The translations under genes were made by a program, and so were the position numbers. DNA of 64,000 nucleotides from Flavobacteriaceae bacterium MAR_2009_75 (GTDB lineage: Bacteria > Bacteroidota > Bacteroidia > Flavobacteriales > Flavobacteriaceae). How positions within the stretch are numbered: position 1 is the first letter of the stretch; each line of letters opens with the position of its first letter. The notes beneath the pieces were generated by a model. The model worked only from the letters and a program-made list of their open reading frames with translations, was not told where the DNA came from and searched no databases. This document shows, in pieces, positions 1,493 through 48,356 of the stretch. Location: NCBI GenBank assembly GCA_002813285.1, contig PHTZ01000001.1:2479501-2543500 (forward strand), read 5' to 3'.

Positions 1493-4288
1493 ATGAAAGA
1501 AAGACCTTTCTTTGGCCTGCTTTCCCTAACACTTATTTTATTGTCCATACTCTTTTTTGCCGCATGCGAAAAAGACGAAGAAGTAGTTCCTGAGTCGGTA
1601 GTCAAGCCCGATAGGGTAGCCCCTGAGCCTCCAAGAGAATTGATAGCCACAGATATTACCGATTCTTCGGCAGTCGTATCATGGCAAAAGGCAAAAGACA
1701 ATATCAAAGTAAAGGATTACGTAGTTTTCCGCGATAGCACCGAAGTTTTCCGTGATACGGTTACTACTTATCTAGCTAATAAATTGGAGCCTGATACGTC
1801 ATACATGTTTTCGGTTCGTGCTACCGATGAGGCCGGTAACATCTCTGATTTCAGTGAAGCGGTCGAGATAGTAACTAAGGCGGCGGACACTATTGACATT
1901 GATAGTTTAAACCCTTATAGTTTGATATTACTAAGGCCGAAACTAGAACTGGATAGTGTTTCTTCTACATCTGTTGATTTAAGCTGGAAATCGGAATCAA
2001 GTAGCTCGGCAATCGAAGAATATCGAATCTACCAAGACAGTACCCACTTGGTTTCGTTGGTCAAGAATTATTATTCAATTGATAATTTAACTCCTGAAAA
2101 AGCCTACTCTTTTTGGGTTGTGGCTGTTGATGCGGCAGATAAAGAAACAAAACCGAGTAATGTTATAGATGTTTTGACCTTGGCGGAAGAACAGAAAGAT
2201 ACGATTGCACCTCCTGCGCCTACGGGATTAAAATTTGATGGGGTTACGACTCACACGATAGATTTATCGTGGCAGCCTTCGGCAGATAGCTTAGAGGTTG
2301 TAGTCTATAGCATTTATAGTGATACGCTGCTGCTGACCACCACTGAAGAAAACGCTTTTCAAATTCAAGATTTGGAGCCTAATACCGAATATAATTTTAG
2401 TGTTACCGCTTGGGACGAAGCTGAAAATGAATCTAAACCTTCCGATATTTTGTCGGTCAAGACTGAAAAGGAAGATGAGATAGACAACGATTCGTTATCG
2501 CCCGGCCCTCCCATAAATTTAAAAATTATCGAGGTCACAAGCGATATAGTGCACTTTGAGTGGGAAAGCGCTTCGGATAGTACGAAAGTCAGTGAATACC
2601 GAATTTATCAAGATGAAGTACTTGTTGGCAGTACTACCCAAATGGAATTTCAAGTATCTGAATTGATTGCCAATACCGAGTATCATTTTGCCGTGGCAAC
2701 AGTAGACGATAAAGACCAAGAGTCAGATCTTAGTGAATCTTTGGTAGTAACTACAGAGGCTCATGAAGAGCGTCCGGTACCGAATTCGATTCCCGTGAAT
2801 TTATCCGCTTCTGAAATTACCCTGACCTCTTTAGAGCTAAGTTGGGAAACTGATAAAGATTCGTTAAGTTCGACTGAATTTAAGGTTTATCAAGATGGAA
2901 CATTTTTCGCAACAGTTTCTGAATCTCGCATTGAGGTTTCAGGGTTGTCACCGAACTCCGAATATAGTTTTTCAGTTTCTACGATAGATGAAAATAACAA
3001 TGAATCGGAGAGAAGTAATCCACTGACCGTATCAACAAAGGAAGAAGACAAACCGGCAATCGACACAACCGCCCCTAGTGTGCCCAATGATTTGGTAGCG
3101 GGAGAGGTTACTGAAACTTCAATCGATTTAAGCTGGAGCCCTTCAACGGATAGTGTAGGCGTTACCGGTTATAAAATCTATCAGAACGAAAGTTTTATAG
3201 CTTCCGTCAAAGAAGTTAATTACAGGGTTGATGGCCTCGCAAACGGCACCGAATATTCTTTTTCGGTTTCGGCTTTTGACGCTGCAGAGAATGAATCTGA
3301 ACTTAGTGAAGCGTTGATTGTTTCTACACGTAAAGAAGTTGTGGTAGATGACACGCCGCCTTCTGTACCTCAAAACTTAAGTGTGCAAGAAACTACCCAA
3401 ACTACCGTAAGTTTGGTTTGGGAGCCGGCTTCTGACGATTTTGGGGTCTCAGGCTATATTATCTATCAAGATGGTGAAAGCATTTTGACCACGACATCCA
3501 CAGCGTATCAGGTCACTGCATTGACTCCTCAAACTACCTATCGGTATAAAGTTTCGGCCTTTGATGAAGAAAATAATGAGTCTGGCCAAAGTTTGGGCGT
3601 ATCGGCCTTGACCCTAAAGGAAGAACCTCAAGAAACTTCAGATAAAATTTTGGTATTTACCAAAACAGCAGCATTTAGGCATGGCTCTATTGAGAAAGGC
3701 GTGGCTACTTTTCAGGCACTGGGTCAAACCAATGATTTTGAAGTGGTACAAACGGAGAATAGTGGGGATTTCAACATAACTAACCTTGCCCAATATAAAG
3801 TAGTGGTCTTTTTAAATACAACAGGAGATGTACTAAACAACACCCAACAAGCAGCTTTTGAAAATTATATTCAATCAGGGGGGAGCTTTATGGGCGTGCA
3901 TGCTGCAACTGATACCGAATACGATTGGCCTTGGTACGGAGAATTGGTCGGTGCCTACTTCAACGGGCACCCAAGTATTCAAGAAGCCACTTTAAATGTG
4001 GTCGATCAAAATCACCGATCTACTACCCATTTACCAAGCACTTGGACACGAAGCGAAGAGTGGTACAATTTTAAGGATATCTACTCAGGTATTATTCCAT
4101 TAGTCATGCTTGATGAAAGCAGTTATAATGGTGGTACTAATGGAGAAAACCATCCTTTTTCATGGTATCATGAATTCGATGGTGGAAAATCATTTTATAC
4201 GGGCGGAGGGCATTCTAATTCGTCCTATGACGAGCCTGAATTTAGGCAGCACCTCTTAGGCGGGCTCTTCTATTGTTTGGGGCGATAA
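1493..4288 (+). CDS. Lipoprotein with seven fibronectin type III repeats and a C-terminal ThuA-like domain
   Basis: A 931-residue secreted lipoprotein. It has a hydrophobic signal with the lipobox FFAAC at about residues 20-24, then EKDEE. Residues about 40-707 hold seven Fn3 modules, each with the LSW core, a YxIYxD strand and a YxFSVxAxD strand near its end. Residues 718-931 match the ThuA (trehalose utilisation) fold: ILVFTKTAAFRHGS, GGSFMGVHAATDTE and a final FYTGGGHSNSSYDEPEF. ThuA proteins are class I glutamine-amidotransferase-like and act on sugars, including 3-keto-sugar metabolism in Agrobacterium. The ATG at 1493 is preferred over the TTG at 1487. It is monocistronic, ending in a strong terminator. 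The enzymatic reaction of this member is unknown. Confidence 0.85.
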   Translation: MKERPFFGLLSLTLILLSILFFAACEKDEEVVPESVVKPDRVAPEPPRELIATDITDSSAVVSWQKAKDNIKVKDYVVFRDSTEVFRDTVTTYLANKLEPDTSYMFSVRATDEAGNISDFSEAVEIVTKAADTIDIDSLNPYSLILLRPKLELDSVSSTSVDLSWKSESSSSAIEEYRIYQDSTHLVSLVKNYYSIDNLTPEKAYSFWVVAVDAADKETKPSNVIDVLTLAEEQKDTIAPPAPTGLKFDGVTTHTIDLSWQPSADSLEVVVYSIYSDTLLLTTTEENAFQIQDLEPNTEYNFSVTAWDEAENESKPSDILSVKTEKEDEIDNDSLSPGPPINLKIIEVTSDIVHFEWESASDSTKVSEYRIYQDEVLVGSTTQMEFQVSELIANTEYHFAVATVDDKDQESDLSESLVVTTEAHEERPVPNSIPVNLSASEITLTSLELSWETDKDSLSSTEFKVYQDGTFFATVSESRIEVSGLSPNSEYSFSVSTIDENNNESERSNPLTVSTKEEDKPAIDTTAPSVPNDLVAGEVTETSIDLSWSPSTDSVGVTGYKIYQNESFIASVKEVNYRVDGLANGTEYSFSVSAFDAAENESELSEALIVSTRKEVVVDDTPPSVPQNLSVQETTQTTVSLVWEPASDDFGVSGYIIYQDGESILTTTSTAYQVTALTPQTTYRYKVSAFDEENNESGQSLGVSALTLKEEPQETSDKILVFTKTAAFRHGSIEKGVATFQALGQTNDFEVVQTENSGDFNITNLAQYKVVVFLNTTGDVLNNTQQAAFENYIQSGGSFMGVHAATDTEYDWPWYGELVGAYFNGHPSIQEATLNVVDQNHRSTTHLPSTWTRSEEWYNFKDIYSGIIPLVMLDESSYNGGTNGENHPFSWYHEFDGGKSFYTGGGHSNSSYDEPEFRQHLLGGLFYCLGR

Positions 4289-4304
4289 AACTCAGTGCAA
4301 AAGT

Positions 4305-4332
4305 AAAAAACCGACTTGTGAGTCGGTTTTTT
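4305..4332. terminator. Bidirectional intrinsic terminator
   Basis: A stem of AAAAAACCGACT, a TGTG loop and AGTCGGTTTTTT. The A/T flanks make it a terminator on both strands. It serves the Fn3-ThuA gene on plus and sits between it and the convergent DUF1460 gene. Confidence 0.85.
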
Positions 4333-4463
4333 AAATCTGAATAATCCATCTTTTTGAATTACTGATGGATGAGATTACCCATTCTTTCGGTATATGGTGA
4401 AATTTATTGGTTTCGATGGATTATCTAATCTACGAATAGACTACTTGGTTTATTAAAGTGGAC

Positions 4464-5300
4464 TTACAAAGGCCGGGCAACCATAATGCCGGTATTCTTT
4501 TTGATGCTTTTGAGGTATTCTGTTAGGGGCTTTTTAGATACTTCTACTTCCATGGATCCTGTAGAGGCATGGAGCAAATGAATCCGGCCATCTTTTTCTC
4601 TGGTAGCAAACCCGGTATGGGTGATATCCAATCCGTTAATGGATGTTGTCAAGGCAATAATATCTCCACTTTTAATAAGATGTTCGTTAGCGGCAATTTG
4701 GTCCTGAGGTAGAATACAAATACTTTGATTGTTGAGGTAAGCTTCGGATGCTTTTATTTTTTCAAAGTTCTCATCCTCCGAAAGGAAAGGATATAAATCT
4801 CTATGGGTGCTCATAAAGTTGATATCCTTTTTAATTTCTTTGCCTCCGATTTCAGAGGTAATGTCTTTTATCAGACCTTTCTTTTCGTTGTTGGCAATCC
4901 ATTCTGAAAAGTAATGTAGTCGGGAGGCATATCCTACCAATTGCCCATCTTTATATCGAATGGTTTCAAGAGTTTCAACAAAGTCATCAAAGTTGGTTTT
5001 ATCTTGCTTTAAGAGAGCTCCAAAGGCCAATACATTTTCTACGTAAGTGGTACAGTCCAGTCCCAGTAGGTTAACGACCACAGTTTCGGTATCGCCAATT
5101 TCAAGAGTTTTGGCAACATAGGGGGTTTTTAGAAAAGTCTTTCCAATTGCCGTTAGAGTCTTGCCAAAATCGTCTTTCAGAAGCCCATCGATTTCTTTCA
5201 TTTTTTCCTCTACGGCCTTTTTATCAGCTGGTGAACAGGTAATTTGTTGGGCGCTCGATAATTGAATAACAAGAAGCAATAAAAAGGTGGCTATCCTCAT
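4464..5300 (-). CDS. Exported DUF1460 family protein (NlpC/P60-like amidase)
   Basis: A 278-residue protein with a signal peptide (MRIATFLLLLVIQLSSAQQ). DUF1460 proteins have a papain-like NlpC/P60 fold and are annotated as N-acetylmuramoyl-L-alanine amidase-like cell-wall enzymes of the periplasm. The nucleophile region LDCTTYVENV has Cys83. The partner histidine is probably His228 in THTGF, followed by IHLLHAS. The gene is convergent with the ThuA lipoprotein and lies upstream of, and in the same direction as, none of the heme genes. Family assignment rests on these motifs and on length; the actual peptide substrate is not known. Confidence 0.8.
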   Translation of the reverse strand: MRIATFLLLLVIQLSSAQQITCSPADKKAVEEKMKEIDGLLKDDFGKTLTAIGKTFLKTPYVAKTLEIGDTETVVVNLLGLDCTTYVENVLAFGALLKQDKTNFDDFVETLETIRYKDGQLVGYASRLHYFSEWIANNEKKGLIKDITSEIGGKEIKKDINFMSTHRDLYPFLSEDENFEKIKASEAYLNNQSICILPQDQIAANEHLIKSGDIIALTTSINGLDITHTGFATREKDGRIHLLHASTGSMEVEVSKKPLTEYLKSIKKNTGIMVARPL

Positions 5301-5413
5301 GGATTGGATGTTTGCGTAAAAATAAGGAATTCCACAACGAAAGTTTCATAAGGTTTTTAAAGTAGACTGAATTCCGTTAGTATGGATTATCGCTTCTTCA
5401 ATACGTTATCAAT

Positions 5414-6484
5414 CTATTTTTCTTTTTCCACAGCCAAGGAGCTTTCAAAACTTACTCGAGTACGAGCTAAACTCTGTGGGTAATTTTGCTGCAAAAAAGT
5501 GATTAATTTTTCTCGCACATGTACCCTAAGATCCCAGGCCGTGGGGGAATCTTTAGCACTCATAAGCGCCCTAGTTTCTACATAGTTGGCTTTCGTGTCG
5601 GTTACCTGTAAAACATTCACCTCTTTATCCCATAGGTCTGTTGACTCTAAAATTCGAGTCAGCTCTTTACGCAGAGCATCGAACGGAACATTATAATCGG
5701 TGTAGAGAAAAACCGTCCCTAGAATATCGGCAGATGATTTGGTCCAATTTTGAAAAGGCTTTTCAATAAAATAAGTGGTGGGTACAATTAACCTTCTCTT
5801 GTCCCATATCTTAACCACAACGTAGGTGAGCATTATTTTTTCGATGCGGCCCCACTCACCCTCCACGATTACGACATCATCGATTTTGATGGGCTGGGCA
5901 ATGGCAATTTGAATACCTGCCAATATGGTGCCTATCAATTTTTGGGCGGAAAAACCGATAATGATACCTGCAACCCCTGCCGAGGCAAATATGCTCACAC
6001 CGATTTCCCTGATACCCTCAAAGCTCATTAAGGCGATACCTATTGCAAGAATAATGACTATAAAAATTATGATACGCTCTAGAATATTGAATTGCGTAGT
6101 GACTTTTCGGGCCTTAAAATTATCGCTTGATTGTAAATCGTATTTACCAACAACATGATGCTTAATTACTTTAATGGCACTTAAGATTAACCACGTGAAA
6201 GCAAATATGAACAGTAGCGTACTCGATTTTCGAAACCAGTACATATAATCTTGTAGCCCAAGAAGGTTGCGAAGTGATTCTAACCGAATAAAAATAGAAA
6301 ATAAAATAAGTGCTATTGGGGCACTGACCGATTTTACTGTTTCTAAGGGAATCAGATATTTAGGATTCTTGCCTAATCGTTTAATTACTCGCAGGAGCAC
6401 AAAATATGCGATAAAAAGTACAGCAAGGGTACTTAACAAATACAAGAATGAGTTGCTGTTTATATCTATATATTCATTCAACAT
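5414..6484 (-). CDS. Small-conductance mechanosensitive channel family protein (MscS-like)
   Basis: A 356-residue inner-membrane channel that releases osmolytes under membrane tension. There are about four hydrophobic helices before residue 165. The pore-lining helix is seen as FASAGVAGIIIGFSAQKLIG, followed by the beta domain start IAQPIKIDDVVIVEGEWGRI, both diagnostic of MscS. The C-terminal 150 residues match the MscS alpha/beta cage. It is transcribed away from hemH, with a 220-bp gap between them. Nothing is missing relative to the family. Confidence 0.9.
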   Translation of the reverse strand: MLNEYIDINSNSFLYLLSTLAVLFIAYFVLLRVIKRLGKNPKYLIPLETVKSVSAPIALILFSIFIRLESLRNLLGLQDYMYWFRKSSTLLFIFAFTWLILSAIKVIKHHVVGKYDLQSSDNFKARKVTTQFNILERIIIFIVIILAIGIALMSFEGIREIGVSIFASAGVAGIIIGFSAQKLIGTILAGIQIAIAQPIKIDDVVIVEGEWGRIEKIMLTYVVVKIWDKRRLIVPTTYFIEKPFQNWTKSSADILGTVFLYTDYNVPFDALRKELTRILESTDLWDKEVNVLQVTDTKANYVETRALMSAKDSPTAWDLRVHVREKLITFLQQNYPQSLARTRVSFESSLAVEKEK

Positions 6485-44625: not shown

Positions 44626-47600
44626 TTAGGGCATGGCTTCTTCTACGATTTGAATTTCTTCGTCAGTAAGCCCATAGAGTTCGTATACCATAGCATCGAT
44701 TTCGCTGTCGGTTTTGTCTATTTCTGCCTTTAATTCGGTCGCTTTTTGTTTTTGCTCGTTAAAATACTGCATCCATTCGGCTTCTTCAGATAAGGCAAGG
44801 GGTTGAAACCCCTTGTTGGCGTTTTTCGCCTCTTTTTTACGTAATTTTTCCAACTCTTTTAGAAACTCTCCAAAGTCTAATTCGTGCCAGTTTTGGAGTT
44901 TTTTTGAGAACTTATTAATTGAAAATTTGGAATTAAGCAAATTCAATAATATTGATAGATTCTTGTAAAAAACTTTATTTAGCTCAATAATTACTTCAAC
45001 CTTTTTAACTAATACCTTCTTTTTATCTTTGCAAGTTTGCTTGTATGGTAACCTTTCAACGAACACAACTTTTACTTCAGCAAGCGGTTTATCCACCATA
45101 TGAAAGTTTTGATGCCTGAAATACCAATTTAATAGTCTGGAGTTTATTAATGCTAAAAGATATTTTAAATCTTCTTTTTCACTTTGAATTGTATGGACTG
45201 AATTAATTGCTACGAATTTTTGATTATCATACGTACACATTAGATTATCGTCTGTTCTTCTAATAAGTAATTTCGGTTCAAAGAAAATTTCAGGTTTTCT
45301 TGGCTCTGCCAACCAAGGTCCATATTTAATATATTCACCATCCCATTTCGTCAAATATCTATTTACTTGAGTGCCCCGAATTAGCGGATACCAGTCATTA
45401 TCTTTATGATAGGAAGTAAAAGGTTTGTTTTTTACAACATCAGTTGTTTGTTTTGGTATGCCTTTCCCTTTTTGATACGGCTTTATTCCAGTTGTAACAT
45501 TTGCAACGGACAATAGTTGTAAAGAGGATGACTCAATTTTTTTAAATAGAATGCCTTCTTCCTTCGATTCTCTATAGTTAAATATTAGTTTTTCATTATT
45601 TAAAAGAGTATCGTATGAGAACTTATTTTCTGCTGCATTTTTAGTTTTTCTATTTTCTAACTTAACTTTAAAGACATCATTTGAATTGGGTCTCAGCTTT
45701 TTTATAATTATGTTCATGGGCTCAACTACAGCATCTGGAAACACATTGAATGTTTCAAACAATTCAATTAAAGTATTTTCCTGAAATAAATATTTACGAA
45801 GTAAAGTGCCATTTTCAACAACTAAGAAAGTATTAGGTGTTATGAAACCCAAGTACATTTCTTCCTTTAAAATGTCAATTGATTTTTCAAAGAAGAAATT
45901 GTACGTATCGTAATTGTACTCGGTAACCTTGTAATTAATTTTATAATATTTTTTTTCTGTTTTAGAAACAAATGCCCCATAAGGAGGATTCCCAATCACT
46001 ACATCAAAACCACCTTTGTATTCTACGGCAAAGGCTTGATCGTAAGTTTGGTTTAGTATTGGGTTGCTTACAAGGGGCTGAAGCCCCTTGATGGTAGGTA
46101 ACTCGTGTTTTTGTCTGTTGGTTTGTATATAATTTATGGTGTTGCGCAGTTGCTCATCATCTTTTATTTCTTTACTACCATATTTTTGTGTCCACAGCGA
46201 TACCGATTTTTCGTTTCTTTCTCGTACAAGGGGATTAATCCCATTGGCGCTATTGTGTGCCCTAGCGGTTCTTCCTTTTATATGTTTTACAAGGGTTGCA
46301 AGCTCGTCTTCTTCACATACCAATAACAGATGTATATGGTCACCACAAATGTTATAGCTCATTATGTGCAATTGCTTTTCTTCGGCTACGGCTATAATCT
46401 CTTTTGTGATAATTACCTCTTCTTCTGGCTCAAGCTTGGTATAATTTGGCAACGGATTAGTGCCTAATTCTCTTCGTTCCCTAACTTTATAATCTATCAT
46501 ACGTTGCGATGTTCTACTATCGTGCAAGGCAGTAGTTATATGGTAGGCTTTTTTGTTTTTTTCTGTAAAAATATCAGGAAACTCACTTTGCCAATGAAAT
46601 GCTTTGTCTGCTGCAACGCTGGGGTCATCGATTAAACTGTTGCCACATTTAATATTATGGTTTAAAGCGGTTAATTTTCTCCCTTTTTGTGCGGTACGCA
46701 GCCAAAGCGAAAGTTTGGCGATTTCTACACTTTCTTCATTGATATCTACACCGAACAAATTGTTTTCTAAAATGGCGTTTTCAACCTCGCTTAAAATCAT
46801 GGCATCACCGAACAATTTGGCTTGCAGTTCATCAATGTACCTGTGTTCTGCAATTAGAAATTCTAGGGCTTGGTTTAGAAAAGCACCACTACCGCAAGCG
46901 GGGTCACAAATGGTCAGCTGTAACAACCATTTTCTGTAATCTTCTAGCTTTTGAGTTAACTTTTTTAGGGTCGCTTTTTGTCGCCCTTTACGTTCTTTCT
47001 CGTATTCGGCTTCATGTATGTCGAGTTCGGTTTTCTTTTCTTCACAAAGTTTGCCTACGGTATTATCTACGATGTATTTGGTAATGTATTTTGGGGTGTA
47101 GAAAACACCGTCTTTTTTGCGTTTGGTTTTGGCCTGTTCAGTTGAAACCCCTTGTATTTCGGCCTGTATCTCGTCAATGTCGTTTAACGAGTGTTCAAAA
47201 ATATGCCCCAGAATATTAACGCTTACTTCACTTTCAAAATCGTAGTTACTTAAATTAAGCGTGTGTTTGTAAAGTAAATCGTCATTGATTTTGATGTTAT
47301 CTAAAACCTCGTCGGGTGCAAACAAACCACCATTGTAAGCAAAAATGTCGTGTTGCTGCCCTTTGTGCCCCGTGTTCATATAACCGAAATACTTTTTAAA
47401 TCGGTCGTACAACGGAAAATACTCGTCATATTTATCTCGTAAATCAGTCCATTGGTTAACGATGGAACGAATGGAGTTTGGTGGTAACAACAGTCTATCT
47501 TCCGCGAAAAAGATAAATAGAAAACGGTCGAGTAATTTCTGTGTTTTCTTGAATAAGGTGAGTTTATCGTATTCTGGGTTTTCTTTTTGAATGGCATCAA

Positions 47601-48240
47601 AAATCTCGTTTCTAAATGAAGCGTAATCTTTATATAATTTTTTAGTGACGTTTTCTTCTTGAGTTAAAGATTCGTCTTTAATCTTTTTCGGAATGTCTTT
47701 CAACAAATATTCAGACGACAGGCAAAGCCAAAGAAGTTCGAAACGTTCTTTTGAAAGCTGAAACAGGTTAAACTCTTCAAAGTCAACGGCGTTGTCAATG
47801 TAAAAACGCAACTTTTCAAAGTTTGAAGTAATCACATAGTTACAGCCGGGTTGGTTGTTTTTATAGCCAAAGGCTTGGGTTTCTACTTTGCTTAAATCGG
47901 TTGTGTTTGTTCCTTTCAGTTCAATTACCGCAAGTGCTGTTGCCAAGGGGTTTAAACCCCTTGATAGAATAGCTCCATCAGTTTTTTTTGAGCCTTTTAT
48001 GTTTTTTAATTCGGTGGTGAGATTAAAGTTGGGCGTCGGGTTTTTGGTGTAGCCCAAAACATTTACAAAAAGGTCAATTAGAAATTCGCCTTGATACTGT
48101 TCCTCTTTCGAGTTTCTAATGTTTTCCTGTATGGTAGGATTATGAAAATGGTTTGTAAATCGCTCGTATGCTTGATCAACTTTTTCATGCTCCAATCCCT
48201 TCAAATATTTGTTTAGAACAGAGTTCTGAAATAAGCTCAT
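44626..48240 (-). CDS. Type IIG restriction-methyltransferase (Eco57I type) with embedded HUH/Y1 transposase domain
   Basis: A 1204-residue enzyme from the ATG at 48238-48240 (MSLFQNSVLNKYL); the longer ORF start lies inside an upstream terminator. The N-terminal nuclease shows Asp88 in TDGAIL and Glu107-x-Lys109 in IELKG (PD-(D/E)XK). The N6-adenine methyltransferase has KDGVFYTPKYITKYIVD (motif X), DPACGSGAF (motif I, from 446), GVDINEESVEIAK (II), KCGNSLIDDP (III) and GNPPY (IV, Asn751). The C-terminus is a TaqI-like target-recognition region. Between motifs III and IV, residues about 563-740 form a complete-looking REP-associated Y1 transposase domain with GDHIHLLL (His635, His637) and NYIQTNRQKH (Tyr704). 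Uninterrupted relatives have only a short linker there. Four REP-like palindromes lie within the gene. No separate methylase or specificity gene is adjacent. Confidence 0.85.
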   Translation of the reverse strand: MSLFQNSVLNKYLKGLEHEKVDQAYERFTNHFHNPTIQENIRNSKEEQYQGEFLIDLFVNVLGYTKNPTPNFNLTTELKNIKGSKKTDGAILSRGLNPLATALAVIELKGTNTTDLSKVETQAFGYKNNQPGCNYVITSNFEKLRFYIDNAVDFEEFNLFQLSKERFELLWLCLSSEYLLKDIPKKIKDESLTQEENVTKKLYKDYASFRNEIFDAIQKENPEYDKLTLFKKTQKLLDRFLFIFFAEDRLLLPPNSIRSIVNQWTDLRDKYDEYFPLYDRFKKYFGYMNTGHKGQQHDIFAYNGGLFAPDEVLDNIKINDDLLYKHTLNLSNYDFESEVSVNILGHIFEHSLNDIDEIQAEIQGVSTEQAKTKRKKDGVFYTPKYITKYIVDNTVGKLCEEKKTELDIHEAEYEKERKGRQKATLKKLTQKLEDYRKWLLQLTICDPACGSGAFLNQALEFLIAEHRYIDELQAKLFGDAMILSEVENAILENNLFGVDINEESVEIAKLSLWLRTAQKGRKLTALNHNIKCGNSLIDDPSVAADKAFHWQSEFPDIFTEKNKKAYHITTALHDSRTSQRMIDYKVRERRELGTNPLPNYTKLEPEEEVIITKEIIAVAEEKQLHIMSYNICGDHIHLLLVCEEDELATLVKHIKGRTARAHNSANGINPLVRERNEKSVSLWTQKYGSKEIKDDEQLRNTINYIQTNRQKHELPTIKGLQPLVSNPILNQTYDQAFAVEYKGGFDVVIGNPPYGAFVSKTEKKYYKINYKVTEYNYDTYNFFFEKSIDILKEEMYLGFITPNTFLVVENGTLLRKYLFQENTLIELFETFNVFPDAVVEPMNIIIKKLRPNSNDVFKVKLENRKTKNAAENKFSYDTLLNNEKLIFNYRESKEEGILFKKIESSSLQLLSVANVTTGIKPYQKGKGIPKQTTDVVKNKPFTSYHKDNDWYPLIRGTQVNRYLTKWDGEYIKYGPWLAEPRKPEIFFEPKLLIRRTDDNLMCTYDNQKFVAINSVHTIQSEKEDLKYLLALINSRLLNWYFRHQNFHMVDKPLAEVKVVFVERLPYKQTCKDKKKVLVKKVEVIIELNKVFYKNLSILLNLLNSKFSINKFSKKLQNWHELDFGEFLKELEKLRKKEAKNANKGFQPLALSEEAEWMQYFNEQKQKATELKAEIDKTDSEIDAMVYELYGLTDEEIQIVEEAMP
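44796..44815. repeat. REP-like palindrome A (20 bp)
   Basis: CAAGGGGTT-GA-AACCCCTTG, near the 3' end of the restriction gene (residues about 1142-1148), encoding KGFQPL. Confidence 0.85.
46071..46090. repeat. REP-like palindrome B (20 bp)
   Basis: CAAGGGGCT-GA-AGCCCCTTG with perfect 9-bp arms, at the C-terminal end of the RAYT segment (residues about 717-723), encoding KGLQPL. Confidence 0.9.
46227..46246. repeat. REP-like palindrome C (20 bp, degenerate)
   Basis: CAAGGGGAT-TA-ATCCCATTG, one arm mismatch, inside the RAYT segment (residues about 665-671), encoding NGINPL. Confidence 0.75.
47944..47963. repeat. REP-like palindrome D (20 bp, perfect)
   Basis: CAAGGGGTTT/AAACCCCTTG, a perfect palindrome in the nuclease domain (residues about 93-99), encoding RGLNPL between the Asp88 and Glu107-x-Lys109 catalytic residues. 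Confidence 0.9.
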
Positions 48241-48328
48241 GTGCGAACGATTTTTATTTTTTAAAAAGGATATAGGGGAAGTTTTAAAAATACAATATTC
48301 ATAGTAATGAAAAAAAATAGCCATTAAC

Positions 48329-48356
48329 AAAAAAGCAGCTACGTAAGCGTAGCTGC
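48329..48356 (-). terminator. Intrinsic terminator of the TIM-barrel gene upstream of the restriction gene
   Basis: GCAGCTACG / CGTAGCTGC stem with a TAAG loop. On the minus strand it is followed by a U run (TTTTTTG). It terminates the gene at 48383-49300, and shows that the restriction gene has its own promoter between about 48240 and 48330. Confidence 0.8.

Follow-up and report, generated by a model that had tools for sequence, protein, structure and literature searches.

Known RAYTs (transposases associated with repetitive extragenic palindromes, REPs; also TnpA_REP), such as TnpA_REP of E. coli (PDB 4er8), are free-standing genes of ~150–325 amino acids, which share a Y1 HUH fold and active site and form REPtrons with cognate palindromes at or within the gene, each RAYT having a single REP family. 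Already known are RAYT activity, including cleavage and strand transfer (PMC8266576); REPs in frame inside RAYT genes, a trait of TnpA_REP subclass 2.4, described in a survey from which proteins of unexpected length, fusions among them, were excluded (Quentin et al. 2018, PMC6006769); and in-frame REPs in other genes, which like the Rickettsia palindromic elements are short palindromes in protein loops (PMC3733652). The gene described here lies at 44626..48240 on the minus strand of a 64,000-nucleotide stretch (the window) of Flavobacteriaceae bacterium MAR_2009_75 (contig PHTZ01000001.1, positions 2,479,501 to 2,543,500), and encodes a type IIG (Eco57I-type) restriction-methyltransferase of 1204 amino acids with an embedded RAYT domain, as identified from its frame, Pfam and PADLOC. 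It is labelled OWN in the comparisons below, where Lnnn denotes loci and Gnnn genomes; coordinates are those of the window, and all protein features given are on the minus strand.

This gene shares with the REPtrons the fold, the active site and the association of palindromes with the RAYT, but its RAYT is an insert in a restriction enzyme, its palindromes lack the GT[AG]G foot of known REPs, and its tyrosine motif is Y---NR-KH instead of the Y---NP that defines class 2 (PMC6006769). In subclass 2.4 the REPs carry GT[AG]G feet and decorate the RAYT gene itself, whereas here they also occupy the restriction endonuclease (REase) part, the linker and the C-terminal tail of the host; on its motifs the fusion would not be filed under that subclass, because its HUH motif is DHIH rather than NH[IFV]H and its tyrosine motif lacks NP. 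Unlike the present case, intragenic REPs and Rickettsia palindromic elements are scattered across numerous unrelated genes, and the proteins that contain them have no mobilising domain. The host agrees with type IIG enzymes (PADLOC PDLC03609, Eco57I group) in having the order REase, methyltransferase and target-recognition domain (TRD) in one chain with all motifs, and differs in the extra cassette. Like inteins and homing endonucleases, the cassette is an in-frame nuclease that is patchily present at a single conserved site and whose tree disagrees with that of the host; it differs in having no splicing domain, another nuclease class and its own palindromes. No report of a RAYT within a restriction enzyme was found in the literature searched, the partial coverage of which makes this weak evidence of novelty.

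How RAYTs and REPs persist and move is still to be explained, a task usually made harder by the multitude of dispersed copies and the want of an assayable phenotype, while here one gene unites nuclease, substrates and a scorable host activity. A complete nuclease domain in a loop, with its palindromes running through the same gene, suggests a mobile element living inside another protein. To judge from the sequence comparisons below, type IIG genes probably carry the RAYT–REP module as a mobile passenger within their frame, with its REPs inserted mainly in the host gene. As this is a one-gene system, with siblings carrying or lacking the cassette that are 94% identical in the N-terminal half and with all exact palindrome copies of this genome within the gene, it allows transposition, cis preference and effects on fitness to be put to the test.

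The RAYT domain and its restriction-methyltransferase host

The uninterrupted frame of 1204 codons that the initial annotation reported, giving no strand, is real and lies on the minus strand, with its ATG at 48240 and its stop at 44626–44628, while the plus strand over the same coordinates is full of stops. The RAYT cassette (residues ~559–742; 46015..46566), delimited by Pfam, NCBIfam, alignment, AlphaFold2 and Foldseek, lies between ...FPDIF and KGGFDVVIGNPPY, that is, between methyltransferase motifs III and IV, in the loop just before the motif IV strand. Y1_Tnp matches residues 615–707 with 38.8 bits in the full protein and 42.4 bits for the segment alone (Pfam curated cut-off 23), and NCBIfam REP_Tyr_transpos scores the segment with 58.7 bits (E 6e-16), which is clear homology yet under the 80-bit equivalog cut-off. 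The AlphaFold2 model of the segment alone, built from an alignment with 37 homologues (predicted local distance difference test, pLDDT, 89.7; predicted template modelling score, pTM, 0.83), has the complete Y1 order beta1-alphaA-beta2-beta3(HUH)-alphaC-beta4-alphaD(Tyr); among PDB structures Foldseek ranks 4er8, a RAYT in complex with a REP hairpin, first, and Y1 transposases make up all of the top 30. Among the homologues covering each position, the residues of the HUH motif His635-Ile-His637 (46330..46338) are conserved in 40/40 for both H635 and H637, and those of the tyrosine motif YIQTNRQKH in 38/38 for the catalytic Tyr704 (46129..46131) as well as for N708 and R709. The domain thus combines HUH and a single tyrosine in a Y1 fold. 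The profile match, the complete predicted fold and the retained HUH and tyrosine residues leave the RAYT assignment of the initial annotation in place, and the presence of a RAYT in a type IIG enzyme is confirmed, far beyond chance.

Along the chain Pfam identifies Eco57I, N6_Mtase, MmeI_Mtase and TaqI_C domains besides Y1_Tnp, and PADLOC assigns the full protein to REase_MTase_IIG (PDLC03609, 1345 bits). One chain holds, as in type IIG enzymes, the PD-(D/E)XK site D88, E107 and K109 (47914..47979), the N6-methyltransferase motifs I (DPACGSGAF, residues 446–454; 46879..46905) and IV (NPPY, residues 751–754; 45979..45990), and the TaqI_C TRD (residues 952–1065; 45046..45387). D88, E107, K109, DPACGSGAF and NPPY are invariant in 26/26 full-length homologues. 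The full-length AlphaFold2 model is moderate (pLDDT 77.6). Insertion of the RAYT domain at a tolerant loop, as had been proposed, is supported by Pfam, AlphaFold2, Foldseek and the homologues, and two DNA-cleaving chemistries and one methylating chemistry in one chain are the straightforward prediction from three conserved active sites. The ratio of nonsynonymous to synonymous divergence (dN/dS) of the RAYT part is 0.06–0.25, and together with the invariant catalytic residues this low value makes all three active sites look maintained by selection.

A homologue scan of genome contigs yielded 45 loci, with the same fusion in nearly all, from Bacteroidota, Chlorobiota, Ignavibacteriota, Balneolota, Neomarinimicrobiota (Fidelibacterota) and one gammaproteobacterial metagenome-assembled genome; outside IIG genes, RAYTs of the clade of OWN are almost absent from the contigs scanned. 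The PLSDB plasmids and viral contigs searched hold no relative, and carriage by phages or plasmids was dropped as an explanation on that ground.

Palindromes in the gene, the genome and the homologues

A 20-bp palindrome, CAAGGGG-N6-CCCCTTG, occurs four times in the gene, once with a single mismatch. The copies begin at codons 93, 665, 717 and 1142, and each of them fits the reading frame. Located by pattern search and given no strand, copy 1 (CAAGGGGTTTAAACCCCTTG; 47944..47963) is in frame at codons 93–99 in the REase loop between D88 and E107, and is missing from RAYT-less siblings; copy 2, with the mismatch (46227..46246), is in the loop that separates the HUH and tyrosine motifs of the RAYT; copy 3 (46071..46090) is at the C-terminal edge of the cassette; and copy 4 (44796..44815) falls in the C-terminal tail, between two helices predicted by the model. 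In the full-length model residues 96–98 and 673–678 have pLDDT <50, and 1141–1149 form an inter-helix loop. The 4.76-Mb genome has three exact copies, every one in this gene (~4e-10 expected if three fell randomly), as searched with CAAGGGG-N6-CCCCTTG, which replaced the pattern AAGGGGNTTNAANCCCCTT, whose spacing was wrong.

RAYT-bearing fusions from several phyla carry 1–10 in-frame palindromes per gene, with a consensus of approximately TAACAAGGGRNYW-WRNYCCCTTGTC that drops to background outside positions -3 to +21. At least one palindrome occurs in 46/46 RAYT-bearing genes, under a palindrome-based definition, whereas none occurs in 41 RAYT-less loci of the same IIG family (174 kb), among which are controls up to 94% identical to the OWN protein over the N-terminal half. 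Outer-arm matches in RAYT-bearing loci number 103 within the genes (149 kb) versus 15 outside them (271 kb), and 95 of the 103 in-gene copies have at least four of the five free inner pairs complementary, only the outer arms having been fixed in the search, which indicates covarying arms; RAYT-less genes gave three chance outer-arm matches in 122 kb, with at most two of five inner pairs complementary. In a survey of 201 genera of the bacterial family, the five genomes with a RAYT of the clade of OWN have 1–5 copies, and the other genomes show few pattern matches, mostly not self-complementary. Chance palindromes are ruled out by the genome count, the genus survey and the inner-pair covariation. 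The CAAGGGG-N6-CCCCTTG family is in this way tied to the RAYT domain as a cognate REP family at the gene, although a GT[AG]G foot as in canonical REPs is nearby in 6/98 copies.

The reading phases of the 113 in-gene copies are 58 in phase 2, 50 in phase 1 and 5 in phase 0, the last of which would often bring TAA into frame; as all three phases are used, it is the DNA and not a peptide that is kept. A coding repeat (KG-x-x-PL peptide) in place of a DNA element is ruled out by the use of three frames and by RAYT-less siblings without the repeat. By site, 41 of the 113 copies are found between the HUH and tyrosine motifs, in the RAYT loop, the position known for subclass 2.4, 19 at the RAYT C-terminal edge, 16 in the C-terminal tail and two in the TRD, the remainder being in the REase and the linker. 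Arm type is shared by copies within one gene at a frequency of 0.42, against 0.15 for copies that occupy one site in different loci (0/5000 shuffles), in a comparison set chosen partly for self-complementarity. Near codon 95, OWN, L047 and L081 have palindromes with different arms, while RAYT-less L078, L079, L080, L082 and L083 have none.

Across 43 genomes, 87/276 palindrome copies are in the fusion gene, which holds all copies in 16 of the 36 copy-bearing genomes; in genomes G309 and G124 the palindromes are mostly intergenic. Elsewhere in-frame copies occur in genes for SpoIIE phosphatases, a subtilase and a type ISP enzyme, in two MmeI-type IIG genes and in giant repeat genes. One genome has a set of SpoIIE-phosphatase genes (L156–L162), several with an in-frame palindrome, often directly before the LLIVAVAD strand. 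The MmeI-type IIG genes (L167:449-3481 and L168:622-3522) are without a RAYT, and are from the same genome as the RAYT–IIG fusion L058. The initial annotation had linked the domain to REPs and, through REP spreading, to host defence: REP-like palindromes do accompany the domain, more strongly than was claimed and inside the gene itself, while the tie of their spreading to defence is not supported.

Gain, loss and exchange of the cassette

The cassette site is always between ...F-x-x-(V/I)F and GGFDVVIGNPPY, before motif IV, and the cassette is 165–264 codons long. On a tree of the host N-terminal part (557 residues, 82 rows), RAYT presence and absence needs 23 changes, at least 19 of which are forced by well supported branches. 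L067 and L095 differ by the cassette with their flanks kept (N-terminus 93% and TRD 87% identical), as do L055 and L092 (85% and 85%). L047 and OWN are 92% identical in the host and 56% in the RAYT, while L047 and L065 are 76% identical in the RAYT and 60% in the host; the host data reject the RAYT groupings L050+L056 (approximately unbiased test, AU, p 3e-4) and L047+L081+L055 (AU p 4e-46). In the sense of a homing element, then, patchy presence at one conserved site coincides with conflict with the host tree, and Pfam finds no protein-splicing domain, only Y1_Tnp and the restriction-modification domains.

An ancient single insertion, followed by repeated precise loss and allelic recombination, with a domain that now does little and palindromes that are old remnants, would account for the one exact site and for the RAYT tree, in which most embedded RAYTs group apart from CobB-fused and stand-alone relatives. 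It is nevertheless improbable, as the active sites are invariant with dN/dS well below 1, palindromes are homogenised within genes and, at one and the same site, differ in their arms between close relatives, and the synonymous divergence (dS) of the RAYT is 2–5 times below that of its host in four close pairs.

That the restriction enzyme has domesticated the RAYT, be it for defence (e.g. cutting of single-stranded or hairpin phage DNA) or for binding hairpins in its own gene or mRNA and so controlling expression, is also unlikely, though with more in its favour: catalytic and structural residues are strictly conserved, the RAYT-loop palindrome is the most constant site, and restriction enzymes need expression control. 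Enzymes 90–94% identical in the N-terminal half, however, lack domain and palindromes altogether, palindrome number (1 to 10) and place vary, the cassette has been exchanged among host lineages, and related RAYTs are found in CobB or stand-alone. Presence and absence at one site between enzymes 94% identical in that half, and swaps across divergent hosts, likewise speak against the earlier idea that the RAYT is a working part of the restriction machine.

Shuffling of the TRD by the RAYT and its palindromes is the least probable of these explanations. The palindromes at the RAYT C-terminal edge and in the C-terminal tail do bracket the TRD, and TRDs diverge although N-termini are >90% identical, but turnover is equally strong without a RAYT (L078/L079, N-terminus 95% and TRD 31% identical; L120/L121, 91% and 23%), and linkers tolerate insertions anyway; the explanation is therefore not supported. 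The presence of the RAYT is without effect on the rate of TRD turnover, which also counts against a tie between the domain and host defence that had been suggested. Within L078–L083 the specificity half is swapped wholesale while the N-terminal half stays >90% identical, whether a RAYT is present or not.

The RAYT is better explained as a passenger or mobile domain than as a third enzyme built into the protein: the gene would in effect be a REPtron collapsed into the open reading frame of another protein, and the restriction enzyme the host of the RAYT domain, not necessarily its user. By analogy with RAYT biochemistry (PMC8266576), the domain would recognise the ACAAGGGG-N6-CCCCTTGT palindrome as a single-strand hairpin, and Tyr704 would nick beside the hairpin and form a 5'-phosphotyrosine; strand transfer may then insert copies of the palindrome into single-stranded DNA close by. 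Insertions would survive where they fall in loops and preserve the frame, leaving many copies in the host gene, and in some genomes copies would also reach other loci. Their concentration in the gene may be due to cis action or to survival in loops, and the cassette may spread among IIG alleles by HUH-driven conversion, which would be homing-like, or by ordinary recombination in conserved flanks. More tentatively, and with somewhat less than even confidence, the system may represent a new class of protein-embedded mobile element, in which an HUH nuclease homes without splicing into a IIG loop and seeds its palindromes in frame through the host gene, host and element being one polypeptide. The data suggest that a defence enzyme can harbour a mobile element in the form of a domain that does not splice, the two travelling together between phyla.

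Several points weigh against a mobile passenger. The case is computational: nicking, transposition and homing are predicted by analogy, and recognition of a palindrome without a GT[AG]G foot is presumed from co-occurrence. Cassette gain, loss and swaps could be plain homologous recombination between IIG alleles with no RAYT activity, and no within-species insertion event was caught among the loci compared. The clades for the AU tests were picked after the trees were seen, and the grouping of OWN with L047 and L081 is not rejected by RAYT data alone (AU p 0.11). Many copies are intergenic in some genomes, so that restriction in cis is not absolute.

Related RAYTs and minor observations

At L212 (10399-12261, minus strand) a CobB/CbiA amidotransferase encoded in a cobalamin operon has a RAYT of the clade of OWN fused to its C-terminus. 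Its CobB part holds an in-frame palindrome, and a second one lies at the end of the neighbouring CbiG/methylase gene; this fusion is an independent case of a RAYT with an in-frame palindrome. L072, a stand-alone relative, has palindromes just outside the gene, the normal REPtron layout. L155 (1937-5569, minus strand), in the same genome as L034, has a second IIG architecture of 1211 amino acids (HSDR_N nuclease, Eco57I and TaqI_C); its RAYT is inserted ahead of motif IV, and the loop of that RAYT has several degenerate palindromes. A distant IIG enzyme (L123 / L218; ~42% identical) carries at this site another RAYT variant (DHVHCIV ... YIDNNHLKHE) and has no palindrome of the CAAGGGG-N6-CCCCTTG family; the N-terminal match has one in-frame TAA. 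In L066 (overlapping frames 1959-3989 and 3910-5430) and L073 the fusion alleles are split by a frameshift in or near the RAYT part, for which decay, phase variation or an assembly error may be responsible.

Apart from the match in the fusion, the genome of OWN has a single Y1_Tnp match (L002; G000:C1:2370281-2370565), which is short and broken by two stops. No Rfam family reached its gathering score in the 64-kb window. The gene region (window 44626-48330) has a G+C content of 28–39%, versus 40–47% for its neighbours, which is in line with horizontal arrival of the gene.

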